Assembly (NCBI GenBank): GCA_027078545.1
Contig: JALWXN010000004.1
Span: 516,737 to 580,736 of the forward strand
Length of the DNA: 64,000 bases
Direction: 5' to 3'
DNA from: Nitrososphaeria archaeon
GTDB taxonomy: Archaea; Thermoproteota; Nitrososphaeria; Geothermarchaeales; JDFR-13
The notes below the pieces were generated by a model. It saw only the letters and a list, made by a program, of their open reading frames with translations, ran no database searches and was not told where the DNA came from. Position numbers and translations under genes: made by a program. Shown in pieces: positions 6,172 through 33,258 of this stretch (position 1 is its first letter; every line of letters begins with the position of its first letter).

Positions 6172-9100
6172 ATTCCAACCCTTCCTAGTCTGGTTTTAAC
6201 CCTCGATGAACTTCCTTATCTTCTCTACGAGATTCTTCTTTCAACCCTTCCTAGTCTGGTTCTAACAGTGAAGATGAGTGATAATAGAGTGAAGTATAAG
6301 ATCCCACTTTCAACCCTTCCTAGTCTGGTTCTAACTCGATCCTTCCTTCCAGCTCTTCGATTCTTTCGATGAGTTCTTTCAACCCTTCCTAGTCTGGTTC
6401 TAACTAAGAGAATAGACATTGGCAGTCATCATATTGACTTGTTGTCTTTCAACCCTTCCTAGTCTGGTTCTAACTGGATGCTTCTCTGGAGACCCCTCCA
6501 CAAACCGGGTCTCCTTTCAACCCTTCCTAGTCTGGTTCTAACGGATTACCGACAAACTCACTACCTTCCTTTCTCGGCTTCTTTCAACCCTTCCTAGTCT
6601 GGTTCTAACATCCTTAGCATGCTCAACATACTCAAGAGCAAGTGCACTTTCAACCCTTCCTAGTCTGGTTCTAACATACTCCGTAGAGTCCTACCAGGCG
6701 GAGTAACAATAGTGCTTTCAACCCTTCCTAGTCTGGTTCTAACTCAAAAGGAACATGAGGCGGTTGTATATGAGTTGTTTCACTTTCAACCCTTCCTAGT
6801 CTGGTTCTAACTTGAAGAAGGGTTAGAAGAGGCGACAATCGACGTATTCCTTTCAACCCTTCCTAGTCTGGTTCTAACTTTGGGATGTCCAGTGCCAGAT
6901 GAGGAAAGCATGGGAATCGCCTTTCAACCCTTCCTAGTCTGGTTCTAACCAAGAAAGCATTTTCGACGCACGATAGTTCTCATGCCCACGCTTTCAACCC
7001 TTCCTAGTCTGGTTCTAACGCTTTGACTATTACCATGAAGCGTCGTAAATCCTCTTCTCTTTCAACCCTTCCTAGTCTGGTTCTAACGCTCTCTTGACAC
7101 CTTGGGATGCCTACAAGGACTTGTTAGCTTTCAACCCTTCCTAGTCTGGTTCTAACGTGATCTCGATCGTGTCTGCGATGATGATGTCTGAGTACTTTCA
7201 ACCCTTCCTAGTCTGGTTCTAACCCTCGTGGATGGCTGGGTATATCCTGACGGGCAGGGCGTCTGTACTTTCAACCCTTCCTAGTCTGGTTCTAACACAG
7301 AGCCGATCAGGAAGACCGCTAGACCAACCCCGCCACCATCTTTCAACCCTTCCTAGTCTGGTTCTAACCCAGACCCCGCCCCTACCCAGTCCTCTTAGTT
7401 AGTTTACTTTCAACCCTTCCTAGTCTGGTTCTAACTCTTGATGTCAAGGAAAACGAGAGCATACTGGTAAATACAATAAACTTTCAACCCTTCCTAGTCT
7501 GGTTCTAACCGGTATTTCCCTTCCACCAGTGCCGTTTCGAGTATGTCCTTTCAACCCTTCCTAGTCTGGTTCTAACTCTGAGCGACCCTCCTGCCGTTGG
7601 CTCATGGACATAGCTCCTTTCAACCCTTCCTAGTCTGGTTCTAACTTGTTGAAGCACTCTTGACATAGATTGTTACTATACCCTTCTTTCAACCCTTCCT
7701 AGTCTGGTTCTAACCGAACAACCCCCAAAACCCAACCGCCGAAAAAACCAAGAATTCTTTCAACCCTTCCTAGTCTGGTTCTAACTCATTACCCTCTTGG
7801 AGTCGCTGAATAATGCCAGACCGACTCTTTCAACCCTTCCTAGTCTGGTTCTAACCGAGGTCATAACTGAGGTATCGCTCACAGCGGGTGAGATCGCTTT
7901 CAACCCTTCCTAGTCTGGTTCTAACGCCAGGGAGGGGGCGACATTCATGTCGATAGTTCATATGCACCTTTCAACCCTTCCTAGTCTGGTTCTAACTGTC
8001 CATAGAAAATTTAACTAGGAAGATAGATAGATTACTACTTTCAACCCTTCCTAGTCTGGTTCTAACCTTAGATGACATGATAGAGGAAACTATTCAGCGG
8101 TTGGCTTTCAACCCTTCCTAGTCTGGTTCTAACGGGAACTCACTAGGGCGGAAATACCTGTCCACCGCATCATGCTTTCAACCCTTCCTAGTCTGGTTCT
8201 AACTATCATTTTCCCGACAAATAAGCCGCTTATCATCAATGCTGCTTTCAACCCTTCCTAGTCTGGTTCTAACAGTCTGATTACATACTTACAGGTATGC
8301 TAGTATCGGGGGTTGACTTTCAACCCTTCCTAGTCTGGTTCTAACATACGATTTCGATCGATGTATGTCAGTAGCTCGTCCAGTTCTTTCAACCCTTCCT
8401 AGTCTGGTTCTAACATCGAATACGGCGTCCGTGATGGTCGGAAACCAGAACGCCCCTTTCAACCCTTCCTAGTCTGGTTCTAACTTCAGTACCCGCTTCA
8501 ATTGTTTTGAGTTTCAACAAAACTGACTTTCAACCCTTCCTAGTCTGGTTCTAACGGTACTTAGAGTGGGGTGGCGAATCTATAAAAACTACAGAACTTT
8601 CAACCCTTCCTAGTCTGGTTCTAACTATGGGATTTGAAGGTTGTTTGGAGGGCTGGGTTGGTTTTACTTTCAACCCTTCCTAGTCTGGTTCTAACTTGGA
8701 TGCGTAGGTCAGCTACAAAAGGGTTTCATATTTTGACTTTCAACCCTTCCTAGTCTGGTTCTAACACTGTTAATCGGCAAGGTTGCTGAAATTTATTGCA
8801 ATTATAAGCTTTCAACCCTTCCTAGTCTGGTTCTAACACTCATATCGACATCGTGCTGTTGACACCAGTCCTTGAACTCTTTCAACCCTTCCTAGTCTGG
8901 TTCTAACTAATTAGTCCCCCGAACTCATCTACTATCCAGTAAACGTTTCTTTCAACCCTTCCTAGTCTGGTTCTAACTTTTAAACTCCTCTCCAGTATTG
9001 CCGAGGTCGCTATCCCATCTTTCAACCCTTCCTAGTCTGGTTCTAACATCTAGAAGACCAAGACCAGAACCTCCTGTAGAGAAGCCCTTTCAACCCTTCC

Positions 9101-11419
9101 TAGTCTGGTTCTAACGTCTGCCTCACCACCATGTATTATTTCTACCTGACTTTTGTCTTTCAACCCTTCCTAGTCTGGTTCTAACGATAAGCTCTTCAAC
9201 GAGTCAAATGTTCCCGAGTAGTTCCTTTCAACCCTTCCTAGTCTGGTTCTAACGCGTGAGACCCTGCTCCCCTGTCTCCACGACCTGACATATCTCTTTC
9301 AACCCTTCCTAGTCTGGTTCTAACACGTTTGCTCGGGCTCTTCCAGCCAGACCCGGCCGTATCGTCTTTCAACCCTTCCTAGTCTGGTTCTAACGTGATA
9401 TGATACCTAACACCCGTAGCTGATTTTCAGTTGTCCTTTCAACCCTTCCTAGTCTGGTTCTAACCGCCAGTTCCCCACTCGACATCCCGAACCGACCCCC
9501 CAGGGGAGCTTTCAACCCTTCCTAGTCTGGTTCTAACAAGATGATGTTGTTGAAACTCGGCAATGCGAACTTGTTGTTCTTTCAACCCTTCCTAGTCTGG
9601 TTCTAACTACCTTGATTCAGACCTTGTCCTATATACTCGTGTACAAGGCTTTCAACCCTTCCTAGTCTGGTTCTAACGTAAACTTGTATGAATCTCACGA
9701 CTACACCACTTGGAATCTTTCAACCCTTCCTAGTCTGGTTCTAACTACCACTTTTCTGGCTACCTCTCACCTGAAACCTTGTTCCAGCTTTCAACCCTTC
9801 CTAGTCTGGTTCTAACACAGTTTCTCAGTTGACATGAGTCTGTAGGTGGCTGACTAGGCTTTCAACCCTTCCTAGTCTGGTTCTAACATGACCCCCGGTA
9901 CGAATATCCTGTATCTACCATTTGGATCCTTTCAACCCTTCCTAGTCTGGTTCTAACTCCCTATATACCTTATATAAGGGTAATAGGGTCTATCATATAC
10001 TTTCAACCCTTCCTAGTCTGGTTCTAACGAGCTATACTTCTTCAGAAAAATCAACGCAAAGACTTTCTACCTTTCAACCCTTCCTAGTCTGGTTCTAACC
10101 ACACTTCTGCGACTAACCGGGAGGAAGAGCCACGAATTAGCTTTCAACCCTTCCTAGTCTGGTTCTAACTTTAGTCTTCTGGTTCACCCTGATTGTCAGT
10201 TGGTAGTCCTTTCAACCCTTCCTAGTCTGGTTCTAACGTTTACGCCTTTATCCCATCCCATTTATTCTCACCTAAACCTTTCAACCCTTCCTAGTCTGGT
10301 TCTAACTCAACCCAAACAACCCAGGAAAACCCGCACCCCAAAAATCTTTCAACCCTTCCTAGTCTGGTTCTAACTGGTCAGGGTAGGTGGCGGTGGAGCG
10401 AAGGCAGAGGATATCCTTTCAACCCTTCCTAGTCTGGTTCTAACATTGAAATGTACCTAAACCGTGTAGGCGATAAAGAGAACTCCTTTCAACCCTTCCT
10501 AGTCTGGTTCTAACCTTGATTTTGAGGGATCGATATGCTACCAAAAAGATTCAGAATCTTTCAACCCTTCCTAGTCTGGTTCTAACTTGGCGGGGGTGAT
10601 GGGATGAAGTTGCTTAGACTTGGTGTGGTCTCTTTCAACCCTTCCTAGTCTGGTTCTAACTGCTCGACCTTCAGAGCCTGATCGAGCCTGGGCAGAAGGT
10701 GCTTTCAACCCTTCCTAGTCTGGTTCTAACGTAAGACTAAGAACATCACATTGACTGGTCAACAGTTACTTTCAACCCTTCCTAGTCTGGTTCTAACTGA
10801 TACTGGGATGGCGAGCGACAACTCAGCCCCGATCTTCCTTTCAACCCTTCCTAGTCTGGTTCTAACGTATTCTGGGCGGTGAGCATGGTTTCTAGATAGA
10901 TCCTACCTTTCAACCCTTCCTAGTCTGGTTCTAACCCAACCTCCTTCTGATAGCATCTTTAACAAATTCAGCTACTTTCAACCCTTCCTAGTCTGGTTCT
11001 AACCTGGTTCTGCTGCTTTCGGGCCTTTTCCTGGGGATGTTCTTCTTTCAACCCTTCCTAGTCTGGTTCTAACTAACTATGGCGGGATTCCTGACATAAC
11101 GTGAAGACTGAATCTTTCAACCCTTCCTAGTCTGGTTCTAACATTTCAATCAGTTCAAAAACACGATGCGTAAAGTGTACACTTTCAACCCTTCCTAGTC
11201 TGGTTCTAACGGGAGCTCGAAGTCCTGCGAAGATGAGTTCCCGACCATCACTTTCAACCCTTCCTAGTCTGGTTCTAACTCTGAAGACCCGTCACCAGCA
11301 CCAGGATCAGTACCGCTGCCCTTTCAACCCTTCCTAGTCTGGTTCTAACCAAGGAGGTGGATGGCCTTCGTCTACTCCTCTACACGAATCCTTTCAACCC
11401 TTCCTAGTCTGGTTCTAAC
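6172..11419 (-). CRISPR. CRISPR array 2: ~76 repeats, ~75 spacers of ~37-45 nt; transcribed from the 11.4 kb leader
   Basis: 29-bp repeat CTTTCAACCCTTCCTAGTCTGGTTCTAAC (minus-strand GTTAGAACCAGACTAGGAAGGGTTGAAAG); last intact repeat 11391-11419; degenerate distal copy 6172-6200. Counted by eye. Confidence 0.99.
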
Positions 11420-11562
11420 CCGTGGCTTTTCTTTTGTTTCTACATAGATGTTTTTGGTGTTTCTATTATTTAAGTTTTATGTGTGTCAAACCTCTGATCC
11501 TGCAGGGGGTTTATAAAGATGTGACGCAGAAAAGTATATAAACCCTTATAAAGGGGGGTCTT
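11420..11562 (-). promoter_or_regulatory. Leader of CRISPR array 2
   Basis: Near-identical to 33259-33401 beside array 3; next to the intact-repeat end of the array. Confidence 0.9.
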
Positions 11563-11589
11563 GGATCTAGGCTTCTTCTGTCGTTGTCG

Positions 11590-13497
11590 CTATGTGTCTT
11601 TGGTGTTCTGTGTGGTTTTTTCTTCTTTGTCCTCGTCCTTGTCTTTGATCCCTAGTTTTTCTTTGATCCATTTGATTTTTAGTTCTAGTCTTTTTTTCCT
11701 GTGTCTTGGCTGGGCTAGGACGCTGTGTCCGTGGCTTCCCTTTAGGAAGACTAGTAGTAGGGACTCTTTCTTATGGGTTCTGAGGGCTAGGTGCATTGCC
11801 AGTGCCTGGTCTATGTAGCAGCGGTAGTCCTCTAGGCTGTGGATTATGAGTACTGGTGTCTTCACCCTGTGGGCGTGGTAGGCGGGGCTCTTCTCCACAT
11901 ATTTCTCCAGGTTGTCTAGCGGTGTCCCGCCTATCTGGTCTGGGTTGAACCAGTATCCTATGTCTGATGCCCAGTAGTCTGCTATCCAGTCGGCTATCCC
12001 GTTCTCGCTCACGGCTGCCTTGAATAGGTCTGTCTGGGTTATTATCCAGTTGGTCATGTAGCCGCCGTAGCTTATCCCGGTGACGGCTGTCTTCTCCCTG
12101 TCGACTGGGTATCTCTCCATGACCTCCTCGACGAACCTCATTATCTGTCTATAGTCGATCTCTCCGTAGCGCCCCCTTATATCGGCGAACTCCTCTGTGT
12201 AGCCCTCGCTCCCATGTGGGTTGCAATATGCAACCAGGAAGCCCTGGCTAGCCATTAGCTGCATCTCTGGGTGGAAGTAGTAGCCGTACATCCCCTTTGG
12301 CCCGCCGTGGATATAGAGTATCAATGGGTATGGCCCATCCCCATCAGGCTTGATGACCCAGCCGTCGATCTCCTCCCCCTCGGCCTCTATGGTGAGCTTC
12401 TCCGGCCTATATAGCTTGGCCTCCTCCACGAGCCATGTGTTGAGGCTCGTGACCCTCTCCTCCACCTCCTCGCCATACCTGTAGATCTCTGGCGGCTCTG
12501 TCGGGCTGGACATGACGTAGTATAGGTGTCTACCCCTTGCCGATGCCTGTATAACGTATTTCTCACCCCTTACGAGGTCCTCTATCCTGCCGCCCCTATA
12601 CCTCGCCAGGACGGACATGCCGGCGTCGCTGTAGGTTATGACTGGGTCCCCCATGTAGTCGCCGTGGATCCCGGTTATATCCCTGTCTAGGATGCCGCAG
12701 GAGAGGCATTCAGGCATGTTGTTGTATAGCATGTATAGCCGTCCATGGCTTGATATCCCTATCTCGAAGCGGTGTCCGAGGAAGTATAGCTTCTCGCCGA
12801 TGGATCTCGGCCTGTATATATGCATGTCGCTGAGGATCTCCCTACTCTCCCCGGTCTTGGGATCGAGGACCTTAAGCTTGTTCTTGAGGGGGTTTATCCA
12901 GTCCTCATATATCGTGTAGTATATCCTGCCCATGTGTACCTCGTATTCGAGGACTCCGTGCTCCTCCTCCGTGAGCCTCTTCACGTGGCCCGACTCAACC
13001 TCCACCCTGTATAGCTGGTCCCTCCTACCGGCTATTATCCCCATCCTGTCGAACCAGAGTGGGGCGTTATCGGTGTAGACGTAGTCGCCGTCCGGGTCGT
13101 AGCCGTCGGCCTCCTCCCCAGCCTGGACGATCAGTGTCTTACCGTCGAGCCACTCCACACCGGAGACCCCGTGTTTGAACCATGCCACGAGCCTGGGCTC
13201 GCCGCCCCTACCCACCACGTAGACGCCGTTACCCTCCTTCTTATCCTCATCCCTCCTGCTTATGAATGCTAGGAGCTCACCGTCCGGGCTCCATGAGGGA
13301 GCGGCGTCGTCCTTCCCCTGGAAATAGGTCTCGCCCCCGTCTCTCCATAGGATCCTTATCTCCCCCTGGTACTTGTTGTCCTCTGGCCTGGGGACTGATA
13401 CTGTGTAGGCTAGGTCGCCCTTAGCCGAGACATCTAGTAGGCCTATCCTGTTTAGTCGTATAACGTCGTCTATCTCGAGCCTCCTCATACCCCTCAT
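11590..13497 (-). CDS. S9-family (prolyl oligopeptidase / acylaminoacyl-peptidase-like) serine peptidase
   Basis: 635 aa; N-terminal beta-propeller, GISYGGYMTNW nucleophile elbow, HSLEDYRCYIDQA and GSHGHS catalytic Asp/His regions. Confidence 0.92.
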   Translation of the reverse strand: MRGMRRLEIDDVIRLNRIGLLDVSAKGDLAYTVSVPRPEDNKYQGEIRILWRDGGETYFQGKDDAAPSWSPDGELLAFISRRDEDKKEGNGVYVVGRGGEPRLVAWFKHGVSGVEWLDGKTLIVQAGEEADGYDPDGDYVYTDNAPLWFDRMGIIAGRRDQLYRVEVESGHVKRLTEEEHGVLEYEVHMGRIYYTIYEDWINPLKNKLKVLDPKTGESREILSDMHIYRPRSIGEKLYFLGHRFEIGISSHGRLYMLYNNMPECLSCGILDRDITGIHGDYMGDPVITYSDAGMSVLARYRGGRIEDLVRGEKYVIQASARGRHLYYVMSSPTEPPEIYRYGEEVEERVTSLNTWLVEEAKLYRPEKLTIEAEGEEIDGWVIKPDGDGPYPLILYIHGGPKGMYGYYFHPEMQLMASQGFLVAYCNPHGSEGYTEEFADIRGRYGEIDYRQIMRFVEEVMERYPVDREKTAVTGISYGGYMTNWIITQTDLFKAAVSENGIADWIADYWASDIGYWFNPDQIGGTPLDNLEKYVEKSPAYHAHRVKTPVLIIHSLEDYRCYIDQALAMHLALRTHKKESLLLVFLKGSHGHSVLAQPRHRKKRLELKIKWIKEKLGIKDKDEDKEEKTTQNTKDT

Positions 13498-13528
13498 TAT
13501 TGGCGCTAGGCCCGTGATAAATCCGGCT

Positions 13529-15172: not shown

Positions 15173-15188
15173 CGCCCCACCTCTCTAT

Positions 15189-16307
15189 CTATCCCCTCAA
15201 TAGGTCAGTCTCTATCTCGACGCCTATCCCTGGCCTGTCGCCCAGCGCCTCCTCGAGGTCTATAGCCCCATCCCTGACCTCCGGCCTACCCCTCCTGACG
15301 AGCCTGTCCCGTAGCTCCGCCTCTAGGCCGTCGATCTGTATGTAGGCGAGGCCCTCCTCCGCAGCAGCTAGGTGTAGGGTTGCGTAGAAGCCGTATAGGG
15401 AGGCGTAGTAGTGGGGGCTGTAGAGGACCTTGTTCTTCCTGACTATCTCTATCAGCTCCCTGGCTATGCGGTAGCCCCCTGTCTTGGATACGTCTGGCAT
15501 ATAGATGTCTATAAGTCTATACTTCTCGAAGAGCCTTAGGAGGTCATACCTGTCATATATGTTCTCCCCACCTGCTATCCACAGCTCGTCGAAGTTCATT
15601 ATGGCTATCCTCTTCACCATGTCTAGGGCGCCTATGTCGTCCATGTAGACGGGCTCCTCGAACCACTTTATCAGCTCGCCTACTTCCTTGAGGAGTGAGA
15701 GGGCCTCCTCCATCGTGTAGCCCATGTTGGCGTCGACCATCACCCTCTCTATCCCCGTAGCCTCCACGAACTGCCTCACCATCTCGATATCCCGCTCCAG
15801 GTCGAAGCCCACCCTGAGCTTGAAGTCCTCCACGCCCTTGTCCATCCATCCCCTTACCCTGTCAATGTCTCCAGGGCCTAGGCCTGTAACGTATACCCTG
15901 GCTTCTCGGTTCTTCATCCCGCCTAGGAGCTGGTATACAGGCTTGTTCTCCATCCTGCCTAGTAGGTCGTGGAGAGCCATATCTATGCCTGACAATACCC
16001 TGGATATCGCGCCCTTCCCCCAGACCATGCGGAGGGGCTGTGTAGCCCTATAGAGGTGGTCGAGAGCCTCGTCAATGCTGCTCCATTCTCTATCCACAAT
16101 TAGTCTGGAGAGCTCCTCAATGGCTGCTGTGGTCTCTATCACTCCCCACCTGGGGAATAGGCTGAATATCTCTCCCCAGCCCTCATACTCCCCCGAGACT
16201 ATCTTGACGAAGAGGTAGGTCCTCTTATCCACCTCTCCATAGGAGAGCCTCAGTGGTCTGGGGGTCTTCTCCGTGGCTGTATAGATCTCTATCTCGTCTA
16301 TCCTCAA
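15189..16307 (-). CDS. Enolase-superfamily (mandelate racemase subgroup-like) enzyme
   Basis: 372 aa; metal-ligand motifs VDANMGY, FEEPV, GGEN; DVSKTGG and SPHYYAS (His) as in the MR subgroup. Confidence 0.85.
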   Translation of the reverse strand: MRIDEIEIYTATEKTPRPLRLSYGEVDKRTYLFVKIVSGEYEGWGEIFSLFPRWGVIETTAAIEELSRLIVDREWSSIDEALDHLYRATQPLRMVWGKGAISRVLSGIDMALHDLLGRMENKPVYQLLGGMKNREARVYVTGLGPGDIDRVRGWMDKGVEDFKLRVGFDLERDIEMVRQFVEATGIERVMVDANMGYTMEEALSLLKEVGELIKWFEEPVYMDDIGALDMVKRIAIMNFDELWIAGGENIYDRYDLLRLFEKYRLIDIYMPDVSKTGGYRIARELIEIVRKNKVLYSPHYYASLYGFYATLHLAAAEEGLAYIQIDGLEAELRDRLVRRGRPEVRDGAIDLEEALGDRPGIGVEIETDLLRG

Positions 16308-16314
16308 CAGGTCT

Positions 16315-16713: not shown

Positions 16714-16792
16714 AATACTGTAGATGCCCAGCCTATACTAATGAGGATCTTTACAGAGAGCCCCGTTTTATCTGTGGACGCCCTATTAATTC

Positions 16793-17626: not shown

Positions 17627-17695
17627 GAATCTGCTTAAACACATGGTGATCCTGGGTAGCCACCCTATTTAAGCGTTGGGGGGATCAGGATATAC

Positions 17696-19651: not shown

Positions 19652-19695
19652 AGAGACCCACCACCCACTTTTTATAAAGACCTATCCAGGAATGT

Positions 19696-19774: not shown

Positions 19775-19822
19775 TGTCCTTATATATGTATATGGCGCTA
19801 GTGGTTATCAATCAACGCCCAT

Positions 19823-20647: not shown

Positions 20648-20785
20648 TCAGGGAGACACCTCCACCGGAAACAGGGGCAAACAAAAGACTCCCCCATAAA
20701 ATATTTAAAAAATATAGGCGGCATCCCCAGCAAAAATTCATGAAATAAAAAGAGTTATATATTTCATAAACACAACAAAATTACT

Positions 20786-21754
20786 ATGAACTCCACCTCT
20801 GAACCCTCCTCATCCGCTACCTTCAGAGGTAAAGCAAACGTCCTATACATTGCCAGTATCACCCCGCTACACCTAGGTGTAGGCAGGGAAGAGGGAGTAG
20901 TAGATCTCCCAGTACAGAGAGACGCCTATGGAATCCCCACGATTTACTCCTCTAGTTTAAAGGGAGCTTTACGTAGTGCTTGGGGAAACTTCTTCACAGA
21001 GGGTGATAGCAATGGGGATGTAAACAGTGAATGTGTAGGTATACAGCGAGAGAGGGTTTTTGGTGATCAAGAGAATCCGGGTGCGATTAATTTCTTTGAT
21101 GCATACATGCTCATATTCCCAGCACGAAGTTTAAAAGGAGTTGTGATAGGCGTCACGACACCCTTTCTTATAAAGAGACACTTCACTATGCTTAACATTT
21201 TAGGAATATGCGATGACAGTTGGGCTCAGATCGATATAGATGTGGATGAAGGAGATGCGATATTAATAACACAGGAAGGTGTGGATATAGAGACCTATAT
21301 AGCAACTAGTGGAGACTGCTGTAAAGTTGTGATAAACGAGTTGGACTTCGAGGCTGTTGATGGTAATAACGGTGATGATATAAGCGATGATTTGAGATCC
21401 TTCGTGAAATCAGTATTAGATAATTTCTTCATACCGTATAAGGCGGTTGCAATAGTGCATGATGACTGGCTAGGCTCACTATTAAATAGGTCTTTAATAT
21501 ACAGGACACGCGTAAGGCTCAAAGAAAAAACTAAAACTGTCGATGTGGGGCCTTGGACTGAGGAGCTGGTTCCTCCAGGCACTGTTTTCTCTATTTATTT
21601 GACAAATAACTCTCCTAAAAGAGAGGAGGTATTTGATAGGTATGTAACTTGCCTAGAGAATATACTGACCTCTGGGATTTTCATCGGGGGAGATGAGACT
21701 GTTGGCTCTGGTCTGGTAAAACTTTTAGAGGGGGTTAATTGCGATGGACGCTGA
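20786..21754 (+). CDS. cmr4: Type III-B RAMP protein Cmr4 (Cas7)
   Basis: TPLHLGVGREEGVVDLPVQRDAYGIPTIYSSSLKGALR and NFFDAYMLIFPARSLKGVVIGVTTP are Cmr4 hallmarks. Confidence 0.92.
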   Translation: MNSTSEPSSSATFRGKANVLYIASITPLHLGVGREEGVVDLPVQRDAYGIPTIYSSSLKGALRSAWGNFFTEGDSNGDVNSECVGIQRERVFGDQENPGAINFFDAYMLIFPARSLKGVVIGVTTPFLIKRHFTMLNILGICDDSWAQIDIDVDEGDAILITQEGVDIETYIATSGDCCKVVINELDFEAVDGNNGDDISDDLRSFVKSVLDNFFIPYKAVAIVHDDWLGSLLNRSLIYRTRVRLKEKTKTVDVGPWTEELVPPGTVFSIYLTNNSPKREEVFDRYVTCLENILTSGIFIGGDETVGSGLVKLLEGVNCDGR

Positions 21755-22286
21755 AAAGGTTAGAAGGGTTCTAGAGATCTGTATGGATGCCTATCAGTAT
21801 ATGACTAGCCCTGAAGGATTGGGGAGAGACGAGAGGAATAAAAAAGAAGCTTTGGAAGCGTTCAGAACCGATGCTAGGAAATACCCAGCATTAATAGCTA
21901 AAGAGGGTCTCTTCATCCCCCTACTTGATATGCTTAGAGATAGTGTGGAGAAAAAACGGGATAAACCTCATTTCGTTAAGCATAAAAAAGTATATAGCTG
22001 GGTAGTGGTTAGGGTACTCTACGAAGTAATAGTAGGGGATGAGCGTTTGTCACAATACGCCAGAAAGGAACGTATTACAAACGATAACAGAACCTTCGAC
22101 CAACTTGTTCTGAATGTAGATGGGGTAGTAGAATGGATAATAAGATTGGCACCGGGAGGAGACTCGATCGAAACGAACTTCCGAAATGAACACATGGCTA
22201 AGCAGCTAGTTGAATCCCTGCTCATCGTGAAGAAGTTTGCCGAGGCTATGATACCCCCCAAAGAGACTGGAGGCGGTGGATCCTAG
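21744..22286 (+). CDS. cmr5: Type III-B small subunit Cmr5 (Cas11)
   Basis: 180-aa helical protein overlapping cmr4, between cmr4 and cmr6. Confidence 0.8.
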   Translation: MDAEKVRRVLEICMDAYQYMTSPEGLGRDERNKKEALEAFRTDARKYPALIAKEGLFIPLLDMLRDSVEKKRDKPHFVKHKKVYSWVVVRVLYEVIVGDERLSQYARKERITNDNRTFDQLVLNVDGVVEWIIRLAPGGDSIETNFRNEHMAKQLVESLLIVKKFAEAMIPPKETGGGGS

Positions 22287-23189
22287 ATGGAGAATCTCAT
22301 CTCGTTTACCTACCCGAAAGATAGAAGGGAGCTCGTTAAGTTCTATAGGGAAAAGGAATATAAGTCCTATTTCGCTGAAAGAGTTGCGCTTGCTAGTGCT
22401 GATTTAGTAAATACAGATGGCAATACTTTGGATGAGCCGCTTAACAGTGTGGTAACAAGCTATCTGAGGGTAATACATGACTCCCTTAGTGCTTCAGGAA
22501 TCACGGTCTGGAGTATTAAGATGGAGACCGTCTCTAACTTGGCGTTAAATCTTTCAGGGGGCGTGTTCCATACAATCCTAAATCTAGGTGTTTCGTTGGA
22601 TCCAATTCTAGGTATCCCGTTTATCCCATCGACGTCTATAAAGGGTGCTTGGCGTCATGCAGTATGGATAATCCTTAGGAATCTATCACCAGATAATGCC
22701 GATACCCTGATAGAAGATCTCTTTGACAATATACCAGTGGTCGTGAAGGTATTCGATGCATACCCTACATATATCAACTCGGATGGTGGATACCTAGTTA
22801 TTCCAGATATCCTGAACCCCCACTACACAAGTACTACTAGGAACGAGTTGGATGTAAATCCTACGCCGATAATACATCTAACTATACCGAGGGGTATAGT
22901 GTTCGAAACAGTAGTGGGTATAGACGTAAAAGCTCTCATGAGGTCATTCGACGAGTCAACTGCAGAGGATGAGGAGGAGAGGCGTAGGATAAGGGATAGG
23001 AAGGAGAGGTGGAAAGACCTTATGAATAAACTGGCCGAGCGTCCAGAGGGGTCACGGGACAGGGTCAACAACATCGAGAAGACGATCCTGGTAATCCTGA
23101 AGGCCGGCCTCATGTTGGCTGGCAAGTTGGGTATAGGGGCAAAGACGTCGGTTGGCTACTCCCGCCTAGAGGTGGAGATAAATGAGTGA
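22287..23189 (+). CDS. cmr6: Type III-B RAMP protein Cmr6 (Cas7)
   Basis: DPILGIPFIPSTSIKGAWRHAVW, FDAYPTY...LVIPDILNPHYT, KLGIGAKTSVGYSR. Confidence 0.9.
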   Translation: MENLISFTYPKDRRELVKFYREKEYKSYFAERVALASADLVNTDGNTLDEPLNSVVTSYLRVIHDSLSASGITVWSIKMETVSNLALNLSGGVFHTILNLGVSLDPILGIPFIPSTSIKGAWRHAVWIILRNLSPDNADTLIEDLFDNIPVVVKVFDAYPTYINSDGGYLVIPDILNPHYTSTTRNELDVNPTPIIHLTIPRGIVFETVVGIDVKALMRSFDESTAEDEEERRRIRDRKERWKDLMNKLAERPEGSRDRVNNIEKTILVILKAGLMLAGKLGIGAKTSVGYSRLEVEINE

Positions 23190-26100
23190 GGGAGGGGAAC
23201 CGAATAGATTTGATGTCTTGGCCGAGTTCTTTGATCAAAAGGCATGGGCCTATCTACACGACCCTCTGGCTAAGGCCTACTTCATATATGCCCCAGATAA
23301 GAAACATGAAGATGAAGCTGAAAATGCATTTTCCAACATATGGGGTGAGGTTAATATTGACGACCCGTTCAAGAAAGCCATTAATCAGGCAGACATACTA
23401 GGCTCTATGCTGGATAGGAGATGGACCGGAATCTTCCATTCAGAAGCGATAGAGTCCTTTAGATACGTGAGAGCCGACGATTTCAGACTGATCATCAATA
23501 TATTTGACCCCGATAAGAAGAAACATCTTTCAAGGCCATACGACGATCAAAGTTTTGTAGATATACATAACGAAGTAGTCAAAGATCTAGCTAAACTATT
23601 GAGTAAAGAAGCGTTCTTGGCAGCTAAGCCAGACCTATGTATAGAGGACGCTCATCAAGTTACTGAGGTTATAAGGAAGATTATTAGGTATCATTTTCTC
23701 TATTTCTATGCAGAGCCAATATGGATCGCTCATGGTGGGGAGCCTTTACCAGCGGATACGAGGGTTCCAAACCACACTATCTTTGATCACATATCGGCTG
23801 CTGCTACTGTATACAACTTGATTACTAGGGTGGGGGATAGTGATGACCAGGAGGGTGGTTACCTGGTCAGGATAGATCTCGGGGGGATACAGCAGTTCAT
23901 ATCCTTCTCTAGGAAGGTTAGGGATCTCTGGGCATCAAGCTATATCCTCTCAATGATGGTGTGGGCGGCCATCAAACCCCTCATATTCGTATTTGGTCCC
24001 GACATCGTCCTAGTACCCACAATGAGGCTGAACCCTGTCTACCACCATCAACTCCATATCTGGATAAGAGACATATATAGAGATGAGTTTCTGAAGGATC
24101 GCATCTACTCACTGGATGAGAGAGTGTGGATATATGTTTTCCTAGATCTATACAAGAAAAGCTTGTTAAGTGTGCTACCACCTATAGAAGCATTAGAACA
24201 GCAGCAAGATGAAACTCTTAAGCCTCCTAGATATGCCCTCATACCAGCTATAATCACCTTAGCCCTTCCACCTCCGAGTGTACTAAGGGAGGGCCTGGAG
24301 CTTCTACTCGAGATCTCGGGTTGTGATGATATAACATGTGACGATGAATCAGAGGAGGAGCATAGGGGGGCAGGCATACTCTCTAGGAGCATGGTAAAGG
24401 TGATTAGGAAGAAGTTGGATGAACTTAGGAGGTCTGGGGATTCAGCTGGACCCGAGTTTGTGGAAAGCTTGATAACATCTCTGATTGAGGCGGTTTGGAA
24501 GGACGTGTACGAAGACGTTATGGGTCTCTGTACAGAAGGTCTTAATGACGATGGTATAAGAGAATTATTGAGAAGCTATCTAGCTAAGCTTATTGTACCA
24601 AATAACTCTTCGGTCGATGTCGACCTGTCATCATTGAAAGTTGATGAGCTGAGACTGATTTATAACTACATAAAGTCTGTGAAAGATACACCACCCGTAA
24701 TTATTAGGGTCGGTGCAGCTAAGCTAGACAAGAATCTAAGGAAGATACTGGACATGGCTATAGGTTCAGGAGAGGATGGAGGAGATGGTCTTGCCCATGC
24801 AGTGGCACAGTCAATCCTCGAACTTATGAATGATAGGATCAGTAGGAGGCTGGAGAATAAGCATCTGGTCAGGGATACTCCCTTCGCCTATAGGGACCTA
24901 TCCAGACTAACTGAGGAGATATTTTCCAAGAGAAGGAATGGTGAGGACATCGGGCTTGGAGTAGTTGTGGAAGAGGTAAAAGAGGTGAATGAAGGTCAAA
25001 AGAAGAATACTGTTATAGGAGTGAACCCTAACCGCGGTAGGGGGTATGACTACTGTACCATGTGTAGCATATTACCAGCGATAATCCACTATCACAGAGA
25101 GGTTGAATATGACTCTCCATACATATCGAAGGGTGAGAAGCTTTGCCCAGTATGCCTCTTCAAGAGACTCATAGGAGTGGATACCGAGTCGCTCAAAAAA
25201 TTCGTAAAAATAGTTTTCTCATTGAAGGGAGAGGATCCACCTCGCCTAGAGGTGTTGTCTACCATAGATGTCGCAAACAGATACTTGGGAGAGAAGATAT
25301 CAAAGATATTAGAGGAGTATCAACAGCTAACTAACAATGGATCCGCATCTGATATCGATGTACTCCTCTCCAAATTCACCAAATGCTCAAACCGTGACTG
25401 GATATGTGAAAATGTCCAGCAAGCTCCCGGCAGACCTGTGTCCTTTGAAGAGATTGATATGCCGTTAGGTATAGTTACGCGAGGGGAAGAGGAATTCGAC
25501 GAAGATATGTATAAAAAGGTCAAGAATGCTTGGGAGACACTGTTTAGAGAAAAGCTTGGGATAGACTTCCCGAATGGGATAACTATATACTATGGGATCT
25601 TCATCACTGATGCTGATAGGATTGGGAAGATTGTTTCTGGGGAGCTTTTCAGGGCGCGGCCCTTCAAAAAGCGTGATCCCGAGCTTTATGGTTATGAGGA
25701 TGAGGTGAGGTTCTATGTCGACTATATTAGGAAGAGCCTCAACATAGGTGATCCTAGTGCGAGGCGGTTCTTCAATATCTTATTATGTAGCGTGGAGAAC
25801 GTACTCCTAAGCCTTAGGCCATGGGACAAGGAGAATAGAAGTCTTGGTATAACATATGCTAAGGACTGTGTCATTAGGAGGCTTATAGCTAGGGGAGCTA
25901 TTCCTAAGGATAAGCTGGACGACGAAAGATATATGAGAGAGATCGAGAAGCTTGTCTACAGCGTATTAATCTTCTTCTATAGGCCCGTAATTCGACGGGA
26001 TGTAGATAACGGTTTTGAGATAGGGTTTATCTTTAGGCCTAGAGTCGTGCCCTCACCATCCTATCTCGTCTCGATATCAAGATCATTGATGATCTCCCTC

Positions 26101-27066
26101 CTCAGGGATGTATATAACGTCGAAAAGTCCAAGGGTATCGTGATATACGCCGGTGGAGACGACTTACTAGCACTGCTACCACTCGTTAAGCTGGATATCA
26201 AGGATGATGATGGTAAGAAGATAGTCTGTATGAGGGAGAACTTCCTGGAAACTATGGAGAATGTTAGGTCCTTCTATAGTCTCGGTGATGGGGAGGGCTT
26301 CGCTGTAGTAAAGAGTAGTAGGAATGGTGGAACTATAGTGGAGTATCCAGTCCCTATGCTCTATGGTCTGGGGAGGAGCCAGGTACTTTTGATGGCCCAT
26401 TATAGGGAGCCTATGTCCAAGGCTATTCAGCTGGCGCATGAACTTCTGGATAGGGTGGCTAAGGATGGCTCTAGGTGGAGGCTTGAGTGTAGCGAGGGAG
26501 CCATCTACGAGAGGGACGGTCTTGTAATAACATCATATTCAGGGGGAGTCGTCCGTGCCCCCACATCTCCCGTGCTTCAATGTATGCTGATAAGTGGCTG
26601 TGAGTACGAGCCTGTCCACAAGTATCTCAGGAGTCTCTATAGCTACATCTATGGAGATAAGATCATCAGCACGGAGGTAGCTGAAGAAGGGGAATGTAAG
26701 AGAAACCTTCTTTCACACTCATTCCTAAGGGATTATGTCCAGGATATGGGTCTAATGGGGTTGTCAGGCAAGTTGAATCCGGAGATACCAAGGAAAACCA
26801 TCGTGAGAATCATAGGTAGGAATCTTAGAATAGGGGGTATGGAGGAGGCTGATGGAGCTCTCAATCTTGCCCAGGAGATTTACAGGGAGATCTTCGACAT
26901 CCTGAGATGTATCTATCATAGTGACAGGCTGCTGGAAGAGCTTATACTGGAGCAGATGATGATAACCGGGGAATACGTAGAGTATGAATTGACAGCAAGT
27001 GAGATGGCGGTATCCATGCTCCTCAAAATGTCCGTGGCCACGAGGGGTGTGGGGGGCAATGACTAG
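23182..27066 (+). CDS. cmr2: Type III-B Cas10 (Cmr2) with GGDD palm active site
   Basis: 1294 aa; YLHDPLAKAYF near N-terminus, RIDLGGIQQFISFSRKVRDLWASSY palm, Cys cluster CTMCS...CPVC, VIYAGGDDLLALLP. Confidence 0.95.
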   Translation: MSEGGEPNRFDVLAEFFDQKAWAYLHDPLAKAYFIYAPDKKHEDEAENAFSNIWGEVNIDDPFKKAINQADILGSMLDRRWTGIFHSEAIESFRYVRADDFRLIINIFDPDKKKHLSRPYDDQSFVDIHNEVVKDLAKLLSKEAFLAAKPDLCIEDAHQVTEVIRKIIRYHFLYFYAEPIWIAHGGEPLPADTRVPNHTIFDHISAAATVYNLITRVGDSDDQEGGYLVRIDLGGIQQFISFSRKVRDLWASSYILSMMVWAAIKPLIFVFGPDIVLVPTMRLNPVYHHQLHIWIRDIYRDEFLKDRIYSLDERVWIYVFLDLYKKSLLSVLPPIEALEQQQDETLKPPRYALIPAIITLALPPPSVLREGLELLLEISGCDDITCDDESEEEHRGAGILSRSMVKVIRKKLDELRRSGDSAGPEFVESLITSLIEAVWKDVYEDVMGLCTEGLNDDGIRELLRSYLAKLIVPNNSSVDVDLSSLKVDELRLIYNYIKSVKDTPPVIIRVGAAKLDKNLRKILDMAIGSGEDGGDGLAHAVAQSILELMNDRISRRLENKHLVRDTPFAYRDLSRLTEEIFSKRRNGEDIGLGVVVEEVKEVNEGQKKNTVIGVNPNRGRGYDYCTMCSILPAIIHYHREVEYDSPYISKGEKLCPVCLFKRLIGVDTESLKKFVKIVFSLKGEDPPRLEVLSTIDVANRYLGEKISKILEEYQQLTNNGSASDIDVLLSKFTKCSNRDWICENVQQAPGRPVSFEEIDMPLGIVTRGEEEFDEDMYKKVKNAWETLFREKLGIDFPNGITIYYGIFITDADRIGKIVSGELFRARPFKKRDPELYGYEDEVRFYVDYIRKSLNIGDPSARRFFNILLCSVENVLLSLRPWDKENRSLGITYAKDCVIRRLIARGAIPKDKLDDERYMREIEKLVYSVLIFFYRPVIRRDVDNGFEIGFIFRPRVVPSPSYLVSISRSLMISLLRDVYNVEKSKGIVIYAGGDDLLALLPLVKLDIKDDDGKKIVCMRENFLETMENVRSFYSLGDGEGFAVVKSSRNGGTIVEYPVPMLYGLGRSQVLLMAHYREPMSKAIQLAHELLDRVAKDGSRWRLECSEGAIYERDGLVITSYSGGVVRAPTSPVLQCMLISGCEYEPVHKYLRSLYSYIYGDKIISTEVAEEGECKRNLLSHSFLRDYVQDMGLMGLSGKLNPEIPRKTIVRIIGRNLRIGGMEEADGALNLAQEIYREIFDILRCIYHSDRLLEELILEQMMITGEYVEYELTASEMAVSMLLKMSVATRGVGGND

Positions 27067-28243
27067 TATAAAGAGTCCCAAAACCGTGGTGGTTAGGCCC
27101 CTGGGTAGGGTCATGTTCAGAGGACCTGGAGAGTTTGATATGTCTAGTGCTGGTGTAAAGGCATACGCATCTTCAATGGCATACCCACTGCCCACGGCAA
27201 TCGCATCGATATTAATCGGTGGTAAGTTCCGCGATGGCTCCAGACCACAAGACTATCCGTGGGGTGACTGGGTAGGGGAGTATAAGGTGTTGATGGATAA
27301 GCTCGGCATACCTACTCCTAGAGGACCGTTTATAAGGATCTCTGTAGATGGAGGCCACAACTACTACGTTGTATATGACTATAAGCAGCAGTTCCTTCTA
27401 GGAATAGGTGAGAAGATAGAGATCCCCCTTAGGTTCATGGTCAATACACTGTTGGATGGTAGGCCGGGGGGACTTAGGATATCTCCTGAAAACGGTGGGT
27501 CTCCATACCCCAAGTTAATCCCAGCCTCGCGAGCTATCAGGGAGATCGTGGGGATAAACCTTGAGGGTGGGAAGACGACTGGTGGGAGGGGTGAGGGGAG
27601 GAAACGTGTATATACCGCAGAGTTCCTCTTCCCAGAATCATTAGTCCCCGATGTTGGGGAGAAATCGGTTAACCAGGTGACCGTCGAATATAGATACCTA
27701 GTCCCACCTGAGATAGGGAGTCTCGACCCAATAGTAACCAGGATAGGTGGTGAGGGTGGTCAGGCCAGGGTCGAGGTATCAAGTGGGGCCGTTCTAGAAA
27801 TAAATCTGTCTAGCTGGCGTGGCGATTGGCTAGGGCTCTATGTACTATCACCCATACTCATCCCAACAGACGAGGATATGCACAGTTACCTGCAAGGTGA
27901 AATAGAGGGGAGGCTAGACTCATCAGAGAGAGCTCTTCATGAGCTGTATGTGGTGGGGGAGACAGCCCTGCTGAACGCAGGCTTCGCACTAAGGAGAGAC
28001 GATAAACATAGATCTAGGAGGCCCATATACCGGGCATTGAAGCCCGGGTCGCTAATATATTTCCGTCTAGACTCTCCAGGTGATAAAAAGGGAGGGAAGC
28101 AGAAAATAGATGAGGAGAACGTTGAAAAGTTAATATGGGAGGGTATTGGAATGGGCCGAGAGGTAGGCTTCGGAAGCATAATACCCTTCAACTATGAAAT
28201 GGAGACCCACGAGGAGGTGTTAGAGACATGGGAAATAACATAG
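27059..28243 (+). CDS. cmr3: Type III-B RAMP protein Cmr3 (Cas5-like); start likely ATG 27059 rather than 26999
   Basis: VVVRPLGRVMFRGPGEF...AYPLPTAIASILIG, EVGFGSIIPF C-terminal motif; 8-bp overlap with cmr2. Confidence 0.88.
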   Translation: MTSIKSPKTVVVRPLGRVMFRGPGEFDMSSAGVKAYASSMAYPLPTAIASILIGGKFRDGSRPQDYPWGDWVGEYKVLMDKLGIPTPRGPFIRISVDGGHNYYVVYDYKQQFLLGIGEKIEIPLRFMVNTLLDGRPGGLRISPENGGSPYPKLIPASRAIREIVGINLEGGKTTGGRGEGRKRVYTAEFLFPESLVPDVGEKSVNQVTVEYRYLVPPEIGSLDPIVTRIGGEGGQARVEVSSGAVLEINLSSWRGDWLGLYVLSPILIPTDEDMHSYLQGEIEGRLDSSERALHELYVVGETALLNAGFALRRDDKHRSRRPIYRALKPGSLIYFRLDSPGDKKGGKQKIDEENVEKLIWEGIGMGREVGFGSIIPFNYEMETHEEVLETWEIT

Positions 28244-29724
28244 ATAGAAAGCTAGCCGAAGAGATCCACAACAAACATAAGATAATGGGGATAGAGCTAG
28301 ACGTCCTATTCCCAATGACCGGGGGATATATAGGAAAGCCCTATGACGACCTCCTAGGTCTCCATGTACCAGAACCAAAAGATTTTAAATATCTATGGAG
28401 GTGGTGGGCGAGAATATTCATAAATGATGATCCAGACAACAATCTTCAGGATTTAGATAACAGAGTGGCGAAGGTTCTTGGTGGTACTTCGAATGATACT
28501 GGAAAGTCGCTATTTGATTTAGGGGTTCACGTCGTTGATGTATATCCTCCAAACATTCAGTATTTACCACCAGACTCCCTTTCAGTAGCCGTTAACAAAT
28601 TGGCACATGAGGCATTTCAAGAAATTAATAACCTAGTGAGGATCGATATAATCCATCATGTTAGCCTATCAATCGGTGATCCGTCAAAAGGTGATATAAA
28701 TGTCTCGATTTATAGGGACAGAAATAACAAAGAAGATGAATTTACCCTTATTGAGTCTTATGATGAACTTTTTTCGAGTTATTTAAGTGGGGTAGATTAC
28801 AAAGATGAAATAGCTAACTTTATGCAAGCAATTCCAAGGGTGAAACTCATAACTAGAGATAGAATTGATAACGTCAGAACCCTTAGGAGTGATGAGTTTA
28901 AAGATAGTTTGAGAAAATCTTTGGTTAAGATTCTATCCCACCTATTCATTCCGCAAAGGATCAAGCTCAAACTACTTGTATATAGAAGTGATGCATCACG
29001 TGAAATAAGTGGTTATCATGCCGACTATCTAAAGTACCTCCTCGCATCCTTAATCCTCGGATCCATAGGCTATATGAGCAGTAGGGGGATGGGGAGTATC
29101 GTTCCACCAAGAGATCCTAGCAACATAATCATTAATGCTGACGGACTTGAAGATGATATCAGGAATTCTTACGGGGAACTACTGGATATACTCTTTTCGG
29201 GAGCTAGTAATATTGATATAAGCAGATTAAGGGAGGCTCTCGGATTAAGGACACCACTTCGCATAAATAACATGCCTATGGTTCCTATCTTACATCCAAA
29301 TTACTCATTCGTGATAGTCAAGAGATGTACCTCTAGTCAAGATGAGTTGTCCATACTAAGTAAGATTAGTCAAACTATCAGCGGTAATAATAGTTTGTGC
29401 AATAGAGTCAATAGTAACACCCGCTCTCTAAACTGGGCTCTATGTAAATTAATGATGGGTGCTCCCAGGAAAAGCATAAGTTCTAAATATCCACGTGGTC
29501 TAAGGGGACATGAAGATTGTATTCCAAGAAGGAGGAGGTCGGCTATATCCTACAAAATGCTAGCATATCCAAATATTAAAACGATTCTTACAACCGGATT
29601 CCTTTCAAGAGACATAGTAAATAGAGGTAGGCGTAGCAGATGTTGGAATAACTCCAGCTTGATGAGAGAATTGGACACGCTTTTCAAAAGTATCGGCCAA
29701 GAGATATCTAGAATCAGTTGTTAG
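28228..29724 (+). CDS. cmr1: Type III-B RAMP protein Cmr1 (Cas7)
   Basis: ELDVLFPMTGGYIG...KDFKYLWRWWARIF; IGYMSSRGMGSIV; last gene of operon. Confidence 0.85.
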   Translation: MGNNIDRKLAEEIHNKHKIMGIELDVLFPMTGGYIGKPYDDLLGLHVPEPKDFKYLWRWWARIFINDDPDNNLQDLDNRVAKVLGGTSNDTGKSLFDLGVHVVDVYPPNIQYLPPDSLSVAVNKLAHEAFQEINNLVRIDIIHHVSLSIGDPSKGDINVSIYRDRNNKEDEFTLIESYDELFSSYLSGVDYKDEIANFMQAIPRVKLITRDRIDNVRTLRSDEFKDSLRKSLVKILSHLFIPQRIKLKLLVYRSDASREISGYHADYLKYLLASLILGSIGYMSSRGMGSIVPPRDPSNIIINADGLEDDIRNSYGELLDILFSGASNIDISRLREALGLRTPLRINNMPMVPILHPNYSFVIVKRCTSSQDELSILSKISQTISGNNSLCNRVNSNTRSLNWALCKLMMGAPRKSISSKYPRGLRGHEDCIPRRRRSAISYKMLAYPNIKTILTTGFLSRDIVNRGRRSRCWNNSSLMRELDTLFKSIGQEISRISC

Positions 29725-29810
29725 AACGAAGGGCTAACCCAGATGAGAGATAATTCTTATGGATAGGTGTTGTGTTTAGCTGAAATTAAATAATTTTCAT
29801 CTTCACCTTT

Positions 29811-31085
29811 CTAGATGTTACTCAACCATTTCCATAGTGGTGTGTGTTGTATTGTTTGGTTTTTGTGTTGGGTTGTGGTTTCTAGGTTCCATGTTATGAC
29901 TCGGAGGTTTTTGCATTGAAGGTGCTCCCCTATCTTGACTAGGTTGTTGAGTTCTCTTCGTTCTATCTCGTCGTGGCTGTTTGCGTAGGTTACCTGTATG
30001 AGCTCCTTGGTCTTGGTGCCTTCCCTGAGTATGAAGTCTACTTCTCTTCCCCTGTTGTCTAGGTAGTGGTATATCTGTAGGAGTGGCTCTTTATTCGTCC
30101 TCCTGAGTAGTTCTAGGTAGACTGTGTTCTCCATCTTCTTCCCGATGTCCCTCTCTATCTGGAGTGGTTTTGCGAGGCCTAGGTCTGCTATGTATACCTT
30201 CTTGGGCCACATCCTCCTCTGGTATACGCTTGGGGAGTAGCGGTCTAGGAAGAATACGCTTAGTGTGTCTCCCAATGCGTCTAGGTAGCTGTAGACGGTC
30301 TTCTTGGATAGCCCTGTCCTCTGCCCAATATAGTTCACTATCTTCTTGATGCTTAGAAGGTTAGAGTAGTTCTGGAATATGAATTCGAAGAGGAGCCTGG
30401 CGAGCTCGAAGCTCCGGAGCCTATGCCTCTCTATAAAGTCTCTGAGTAGGATCTCGTCGTAGTAGGTTCTCAGTATCTTCTCCCTGGTGAAGCGGTCGCT
30501 GGCCAGGACTACCTCTGGGTAGCCCCCTATCTCGAGGTACTCGTCTAGGAGCCTGAGTATGTATCCCCTCTCCTCAAAGGTCGGGTACATGTCTGGGCTG
30601 GAGCCCCTGGCACTGAGGAATTCTCTGAAGCTGAAGGGTAGGAGTAGGTAGGATACCGCCCTCCCCCTTAGCTGTGTAGCCAGCTCCCTGCTCAGCAGCT
30701 TGGATGAGGAGCCAGTCACGAATATCCTATAGCCATAGTCGAGAAGCGTCCTCAGGAGGGCCTCCCAACCCCGAGCCTCCTGGACCTCGTCGAGGAGGAG
30801 GGTGTCAGGCCTAGTCCCAGTGACCTCTGTATAGATCTCCACCGCCTCGAAGAACTCCCTAGCCCCTACCCCCCTGAAGAAGACGTTCTCAAAGTTTAGA
30901 TACATAGCCCTGGGGTATCGATGGGTCAGCAGGTAATACATGTAGAACGTCTTACCCGACCTACGCGGCCCAACAATAGCGACGATCTTACCCGGAATAG
31001 GCCTGGCGTCAAGCTCGCGGAGGACCCCCTTGAACACCGGTCTCCTCCTAAAATAGTCTATAACCACGTCTCTATCCAGAGGCAT
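29811..31085 (-). CDS. AAA ATPase of the DUF4143/COG1373 type
   Basis: VGPRRSGKTFYMYYLL P-loop, TLLLDEVQEARGWEALL Walker B, VTGSSSKLLSRELATQLRGR, C-terminal VDFILREG nuclease-like motif. Confidence 0.9.
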   Translation of the reverse strand: MPLDRDVVIDYFRRRPVFKGVLRELDARPIPGKIVAIVGPRRSGKTFYMYYLLTHRYPRAMYLNFENVFFRGVGAREFFEAVEIYTEVTGTRPDTLLLDEVQEARGWEALLRTLLDYGYRIFVTGSSSKLLSRELATQLRGRAVSYLLLPFSFREFLSARGSSPDMYPTFEERGYILRLLDEYLEIGGYPEVVLASDRFTREKILRTYYDEILLRDFIERHRLRSFELARLLFEFIFQNYSNLLSIKKIVNYIGQRTGLSKKTVYSYLDALGDTLSVFFLDRYSPSVYQRRMWPKKVYIADLGLAKPLQIERDIGKKMENTVYLELLRRTNKEPLLQIYHYLDNRGREVDFILREGTKTKELIQVTYANSHDEIERRELNNLVKIGEHLQCKNLRVITWNLETTTQHKNQTIQHTPLWKWLSNI

Positions 31086-31103
31086 AGTGAATAAAATATG
31101 TCT

Positions 31104-31165
31104 AAACCCGTTAAAAAGTTCCCTAAGGAAACCAAAAACCCGTTAAAAAGTTCCCTAGGGAAACC
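31104..31165. repeat. Two tandem 30-bp repeats, period 32 bp, with internal palindrome
   Basis: AAACCCGTTAAAAAGTTCCCTAAGGAAACC at 31104 and AAACCCGTTAAAAAGTTCCCTAGGGAAACC at 31136; just upstream of the ATPase start. Confidence 0.85.
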
Positions 31166-31472
31166 TACCAACCAAATAATAAAAAAGGCCCAACCACACC
31201 ATACTAGGCCATACATCCCTCAATCAGGCCCTCAGCTCCTCCTCAAGAAGTTGGTCGGCCTGCTCCTCCACCACGTCAAATGTAAGGTCCTCCCTACCGT
31301 ATCTACCTCTAAGCCTAGTTAGTGGATCCTCCTCAGCACCCGTCATACCCAATGTATTGATACTAAAAACCCCTACAAATATCAACAAAGCCTCCACGAC
31401 ATTCAACACACATGTATCCATTACGTAGCCATTACAATAAACCAGTCTAACACTAACATCAGAAAGAACACA

Positions 31473-33258
31473 CCTCCAACCCTTCCTAGTCTGGTTCTAA
31501 CACCAAGGAGGACTACGAGGTTCTGACAGGGCTCTTCATCTTTCAACCCTTCCTAGTCTGGTTTTAACCGTTTCCTCGAGGCTGAGAGGGTCCCTCAGGA
31601 GGTGAAGGGGAATGGAATGCTTTCAACCCTTCCTAGTCTGGTTTTAACACGTGAAGCACGACGTCCCCCTGCTTGGCGCTCGTAAGATCGAGCTTTCAAC
31701 CCTTCCTAGTCTGGTTTTAACGAAAACGTTTTACGCAATGTATTCTACAAGTAATATGTTTCTCTTTCAACCCTTCCTAGTCTGGTTTTAACTACTCAGA
31801 AACATCAAAGAGCTAATAGAAATATATTGTGCTTTCAACCCTTCCTAGTCTGGTTTTAACTCAAACGCCATACTCTATCACCTCCTCTAGAACTCACACT
31901 GCTTTCAACCCTTCCTAGTCTGGTTTTAACTATAAGCCGATACTGAAACTGTTTATGCCGTATCTAGCGCTTTCAACCCTTCCTAGTCTGGTTTTAACAA
32001 ACTGGTATGGCGATTACTGATGTCATTAGACTTGCAAGCTTTCAACCCTTCCTAGTCTGGTTTTAACATAGTAGGCTCAAGTACTTCTCGGTCTTGTGGC
32101 TTGGCATCACCTTTCAACCCTTCCTAGTCTGGTTTTAACATCGTCAAGACAGCAAGACCATCACCCCCGCCACTAGAACGCTTTCAACCCTTCCTAGTCT
32201 GGTTTTAACTGGTATGATGGCCTGTCTCAGGAGTAGCTTCATCATGCTGACTTTCAACCCTTCCTAGTCTGGTTTTAACCGTCCGGCTTGAGCTTGTGGA
32301 ACGGGACTACTACACAACTTTCAACCCTTCCTAGTCTGGTTTTAACATCGTCAAGACAGCAAGACCATCACCCCCGCCACTAGAACGCTTTCAACCCTTC
32401 CTAGTCTGGTTTTAACAAGTTGTTCGACGATTGGAAAAGTGTTTTTCATCTCGTTTACTTTCAACCCTTCCTAGTCTGGTTTTAACCTTCTCTGGGGTGG
32501 TGGCTTCCTGCCGCAGAGTATTGTTGTTCCCTTTCAACCCTTCCTAGTCTGGTTTTAACCATCCTGGTACAGGGAGCAGGACAGTAAACATAGATCTTAC
32601 TTTCAACCCTTCCTAGTCTGGTTTTAACACGGGAAAGTCTACACTAGCACTACGCATGATGAAATATGTCCTTTCAACCCTTCCTAGTCTGGTTTTAACA
32701 CAGATACCGATTCCCGCCAATGTTGTTGTCCGTTTTATTCACTTTCAACCCTTCCTAGTCTGGTTTTAACACTACGTAAAACTGATGACGAAGACGGGAT
32801 AGAGGATGAAGCTTTCAACCCTTCCTAGTCTGGTTTTAACTTCATCATGCGTAGTGCTAGTGTAGACTTTCCCGTTCCCTTCTTTCAACCCTTCCTAGTC
32901 TGGTTTTAACATGGGTGTTCTGTCAGGCTTATAAGCCTGAACCGATTTCTCTTTCAACCCTTCCTAGTCTGGTTTTAACGTATCTCCCGCCGAATATCTG
33001 GGTGGAGGTAGAAGTCCTTGACTTTCAACCCTTCCTAGTCTGGTTTTAACTGGATGATGAAGGGAAGGTGGTGAAGACCATCCCGAAGAGCTTTCAACCC
33101 TTCCTAGTCTGGTTTTAACATGACGGTAGCGGAAACCCGACAGGGGTCGCAGTCTACATACTTTCAACCCTTCCTAGTCTGGTTTTAACATATATATGAT
33201 GTGCTCCACATCTTCAGGTTGTAGGGAGCCTTTCAACCCTTCCTAGTCTGGTTTTAAC
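31473..33258 (-). CRISPR. CRISPR array 3: 26 repeats, 25 spacers
   Basis: 29-bp repeat CTTTCAACCCTTCCTAGTCTGGTTTTAAC, one base different from array 2; degenerate distal copy 31473-31501; leader-proximal copy 33230-33258. Confidence 0.99.

Follow-up and report, generated by a model that had tools for sequence, protein, structure and literature searches.

The window, a stretch of 64,000 nucleotides, corresponds to C4:516737-580736 of a 1.24-Mb archaeal genome. Two CRISPR arrays in it, arrays 2 and 3, are composed of identical direct repeats separated by unique spacers of regular length (29-nt repeats, 37-51 nt spacers). Array 2 (6172..11419, minus strand) contains 76 repeats of 29 nt and 75 spacers of 37-45 nt, and array 3 (31473..33258, minus strand) contains 26 repeats and 25 spacers of 38-51 nt. 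The array 2 leader (11420..11559, minus strand), about 140 bp long, is located on the right of the array, so the crRNA sense is the minus strand. It is 95% identical to the array 3 leader (33259..33398, minus strand).

The arrays are neighbored by cas genes. The type III-B effector genes (20786..28243, plus strand) are cmr4 (20786-21754), cmr5 (21744-22286), cmr6 (22287-23189), cas10/cmr2 (23182-27066) and cmr3 (26999-28243), all on the plus strand. The array 3 leader is adjoined by a gene for a Cas6-family crRNA endonuclease (33433..34299, plus strand; Pfam Cas_Cas6_C, 1.2e-6; PADLOC Cas6b, 1.7e-34).

We tabulated every repeat in both arrays base by base. In array 2, 75 of the 76 repeats are letter-identical CTTTCAACCCTTCCTAGTCTGGTTCTAAC, ending in ...GGTTCTAAC. 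The leader-distal copy, or terminal repeat (6172..6200, minus strand), reads ATTCCAACCCTTCCTAGTCTGGTTTTAAC and is the sole array 2 repeat ending in ...GGTTTTAAC. The situation in array 3 is the opposite. Its body (25 of 26 repeats, identical) carries ...GGTTTTAAC, and its terminal repeat (31473..31501, minus strand), which reads CCTCCAACCCTTCCTAGTCTGGTTCTAAC, is the only one with ...GGTTCTAAC. At the diagnostic site, the terminal repeats have T (6196, array 2) and C (31497, array 3), and both are degenerate in their last 5 nt. An earlier note on this DNA had described the opposite alleles at the two distal ends, as well as CCAACCC replacing TCAACCC in both terminal copies. Both descriptions hold in the full tabulation, down to the coordinates and every letter, and neither variant is interspersed within either array.

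Five arrays with one repeat

Genome-wide, the repeat is found in 182 copies. These make up five arrays, all of which have homologous leaders; C and D below denote arrays 2 and 3. The others are array A (C4:481.9-483.8 kb, 28 repeats), array B (C4:497.6-497.9 kb, 5 repeats) and array E (C4:789.9-793.1 kb, minus strand, 47 repeats). The conserved leader is found at one end of these arrays and the odd repeat at the opposite end. The distal and body alleles are both C in array A. Arrays B, D and E are in one state, a C terminal with a T body, and array C has a T terminal with a C body. The terminal repeat is therefore C in four of the five arrays, whatever the body allele, and array C alone has a T terminal. 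With four C terminals and no pairing among them, arrays C and D are not a special pair, and their mirror image amounts to two of five draws. In all four mixed arrays, the allele changes at the very first junction. With one randomly placed switch per array, the chance of this is about 3e-6; the position of the switch is not due to chance.

Congeneric relatives carrying the repeat are public metagenome-assembled genomes of Candidatus Geothermarchaeota. Wherever the diagnostic site is seen in these three genomes (G001-G003), it is T. On the piece of G001 that was seen there is no array, only one degenerate copy of the repeat (L064, around 1496-1524), also with T. A search of other genera of the family, allowing up to 3 mismatches, gave no match, and none of the viral contigs searched carry the repeat.

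Several spacers recur. Array D contains two identical spacers, D10 (32140-32180) and D13 (32347-32387), separated by two unrelated spacers and with unduplicated neighbors. Spacers D17 (32629-32670) and D20 (32841-32881) overlap by 35 bp on opposite strands, one site having been acquired twice, once in each orientation. The array C spacer at 11074-11113 matches array A spacer 9 (L042) at 38 of 40 positions. The two have a common leader-side end and lengths 1 nt apart, as would be expected if they had been acquired separately with a single PAM as the anchor. Spacer D8 (31999-32038) is a close variant of a G003 spacer (L047); the two agree at 32 of 34 aligned positions and end alike on the leader side, as one site sampled independently in two species. 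We looked for protospacers of four recurrent spacer sequences, including the 11074-11113/array A pair, by exact pattern in viral contigs and found none.

Degeneration of the terminal repeats

Differences between terminal and body repeats are concentrated at the 3' end of the terminal repeat. In the last 5 nt (crRNA sense), 19 of 35 cells are changed, versus 2 of 161 elsewhere, the diagnostic site being left aside in the latter count (p=6e-15). The exception is array B, whose terminal repeat shows no degeneration. Because no spacer follows the terminal repeat, its last 5 nt form no crRNA handle, and relaxed constraint is expected there. The core of the repeat, from what is generally known of Cas6, should still be needed for maturing the last crRNA. 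The limit of the degeneration to the last 5 nt is as expected on these grounds.

The CCAACCC motif common to arrays C and D differs from the intact one by a single base (position 4, T>C), inside this freely degenerate stretch. It is therefore weak evidence of common descent. The chance of finding C at position 4 in both arrays is about 0.03-0.45, depending on the assumption, and the same C is present in the array A terminal and its orthologue in G002.

We also looked for older degenerate repeats beyond the terminal ones of any array; the best match, with 11 mismatches of 28, is unconvincing. The distal flank of array B (L043, ~2100-3128) matches the flank of a G003 array (L047) up to the edge of that array, with ~930 bp of other sequence intervening between array B and the matching flank. 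As the terminal repeat of array B is intact, the array may have lost its true end. A third array in the window (4212-5177), which has a different repeat type and adjoins cas1 and cas6, likewise has a last copy whose final 5 nt have degenerated from GAAAC to GGAGT.

Orthologous loci and leaders

The sequences beyond the terminal repeats (0.5-1.5 kb) were compared among the five arrays, and nothing is common to them except the repeat itself. The exchange junctions that the earlier note had proposed to look for beyond 6172 and 31473 are not visible, as the flanks there are unrelated. For array D, both flanks searched in G001-G003 gave no match outside their own genome, nor did the distal flank of array C. 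The leader-side flank of array C, which is coding, has only diverged matches in these genomes (64-72% identical stretches).

Two of the arrays have orthologues in G002. The upstream flank of array A is 89% identical to contig C7 and its downstream flank 86% identical to C13; the flanks of array E are 84% and 83% identical to contig C2. This orthology indicates that loci A and E were already in place before the split from G002. The G002 orthologues of both have T at the diagnostic site, in the terminal repeat as well as in the body. At locus A, the terminal repeat agrees with its own body in each genome, two core sites distinguish one genome from the other, and the degenerate handle bases are common to both terminals. 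This is what a deletion between body and terminal repeats would leave, with the leader side from the body and the handle from the terminal. Terminal repeats are thus not perfectly frozen and can adopt the body allele. Within the G002 orthologue of array A (L045, 7908-8286), six consecutive CTTCCTAG repeats lie in an array of CTTCTTAG repeats. This block is a switch and return, possibly a segment inserted from another array.

Comparison of the ~140-bp leaders revealed a different pattern from that of the flanks. Leaders A and E have 96.4% identity to each other, and the array C leader is 91-93% identical to both. However, A is only 85.7% identical to its G002 counterpart (C13), and E 83.6% (C2). 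Within-genome leader copies are thus closer than orthologous ones at loci whose flanks are orthologous. Since the orthologous flanks are 83-89% identical, the leader is not slow-evolving. In AU tests, a clade of the E and G002 C2 leaders was rejected (p=0.0006), and a grouping of A with G002 C13 was borderline (p=0.064). In the first 100 bp, A and E have an identity of 0.98, which falls to 0.3-0.5 beyond ~150 bp and places the boundary of their likeness at ~140 bp. Over the same stretch, A remains ~0.8 identical to its own orthologue throughout. These comparisons suggest that the leaders were most likely homogenized between arrays after the split from G002. The leader of array B is of the G002 type.

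The leader tree groups A with E against the rest, with moderate supports (89-92%), and leaders C and D are nearest to each other by identity. Each of these pairs includes one C-bodied and one T-bodied array, which implies that the body allele has changed more than once. Judged from these alignments, the exchange that the data reveal would be at the leader end, not at the distal ends. A search of the literature gave no paper on gene conversion between array leaders.

Origin of the terminal alleles

Taken together, the analysis suggested that the terminal repeats are probably relics, preserved at the fixed end of arrays that grow at the other. Arrays C and D would belong to a family of five that have a single repeat and a single leader type in common, and the leader-proximal repeat would be the template for new units. 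We infer that recombination between repeats removes older internal units, which would leave each body with a single allele of recent origin. Each array would be anchored by its terminal repeat, whose degenerate last 5 nt would lower recombination with body repeats. The allele next to the leader would change through mutation or through occasional conversion between arrays at the leader end, and the terminal repeat would then keep the older C/T state. The homogenized leaders are evidence for such conversion. The opposite end alleles of arrays C and D would then be two independent relics of earlier allele states. Terminal-repeat polymorphism, the stability of the anchor and its proposed protection from recombination have been reviewed (PMC8047081), and the terminal unit is described there as the most stable part of an array.

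In a toy simulation with copying, trimming, rare switching and terminal recombination at 2%, 48-56% of the arrays were homogeneous, 37-41% were terminal-only and 8-11% were mixed internally. A terminal repeat is known for seven arrays across the two genomes; at the diagnostic site, three of them are homogeneous, four are terminal-only and none is internally mixed. The parameters were chosen as an illustration and were not fitted; terminal-only arrays become fewer when switching is faster or terminal recombination is freer.

Several points count against the anchor explanation. T may be the ancestral allele in the genus, given its presence in G001-G003. If so, the C terminals of A, B, D and E, which lie at unrelated loci, would require a past C phase in these arrays and then a return of three bodies to T, which is not parsimonious. 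Locus A, where the terminal repeat matches its own body in either genome, shows that terminals are not wholly frozen. In addition, the barrier argument does not cover array B, whose terminal repeat is without degeneration.

The arrays could also derive from a mixed founder that held both alleles and was copied to several places, each copy then growing from one repeat. In its favor, every mixed array varies at one and the same site, and the leaders are homologous, those of C and D being 95% identical. However, no second founder spacer or flank is common to the arrays. Furthermore, loci A and E are older than the G002 split, yet their terminals are T in G002 and C here, which is not a frozen founder state. 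We regard this origin as unlikely.

The earlier note had proposed that a reciprocal exchange near the distal ends of arrays C and D exchanged their terminal repeats. The terminal allele of each is indeed the body allele of the other, and in Sulfolobus CRISPR loci are known to recombine with one another (PMC4390879). An exchange predicts two complementary partners, but five arrays are found, four of them with a C terminal. The combination of a C terminal and a T body is found in B and E as well and does not call for a partner. The sequences past the terminal repeats have nothing in common, and the terminal spacers of C and D do not match each other. An exchange is accordingly very unlikely. Other parts of the growth history in that note stand, namely that the terminal repeats are old and that homogeneous bodies grew by copying of the leader-end repeat; with five arrays and no visible junction, the reciprocal exchange between C and D is not supported.

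Independent mutation of each terminal repeat at one site is less probable still. The change is a single-site C/T transition, and terminal repeats do gather changes. Outside their last 5 nt and with this site set apart, however, only 2 of 161 cells are changed, yet four of five arrays differ from their body exactly at the diagnostic site and in the same two letters. Collapse to the last repeat followed by regrowth from it, documented in Legionella (PMC7056967), could account for arrays with matching terminal and body alleles (A and the G002 array on C7). Such regrowth would, however, fill the body with copies of the degenerate handle, whereas all bodies keep an intact CTTTCAAC end bar single odd copies; collapse and regrowth is the most improbable of the alternatives, contradicted for these arrays unless an intact repeat survived beside the terminal one.

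The pattern resembles degenerate terminal repeats (anchor or trailer-end repeats) elsewhere, such as those of Streptococcus agalactiae CRISPR1 (PMC4466440; reviewed in PMC8047081), where the deviation is limited to the leader-distal repeat. In those systems, this terminal repeat is stable and marks the lineage (PMC4466440, PMC8047081). Unlike in S. agalactiae CRISPR1 (PMC4466440), an additional C/T site in the core separates terminal from body here, with the same pair of letters in four of the five paralogous arrays. The paired I-F arrays of Legionella pneumophila (PMC7056967) are similar in that two related systems coexist in one strain, with one SNP between the consensus repeats and a mutated last repeat. 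In the Lens strain, the last repeat keeps the SNP allele of its own system (PMC7056967), whereas four terminals here carry the allele opposite to the body. Collapse and regrowth, seen in Legionella (PMC7056967), leave no sign here. Multi-locus CRISPR in Sulfolobus (PMC4390879) likewise has several arrays with a common repeat and leader and recombination between loci. The exchange there was read from shared spacer blocks (PMC4390879); here it is read from the leader, through orthology with a congeneric genome.

The arrays are thus a new archaeal example of known terminal-repeat behavior in CRISPR, and the added element is the evidence for a homogenization of leaders between arrays. Comparison across the whole genome corrects the pairwise account of a swap, and all arrays of a genome should be compared before the allele of a terminal repeat is read as exchange. 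The five paralogous arrays, two of them with orthologues in a relative, provide a small natural test set for the differing rates at which leaders, leader-end repeats and terminal repeats evolve. We suggest, tentatively, that dispersed arrays in this archaeal lineage may evolve in concert: the ~140-bp leader and first repeat would be repeatedly converted from one array to another, the alleles of leader-end repeats would flip over time, and the terminals would record earlier flips.
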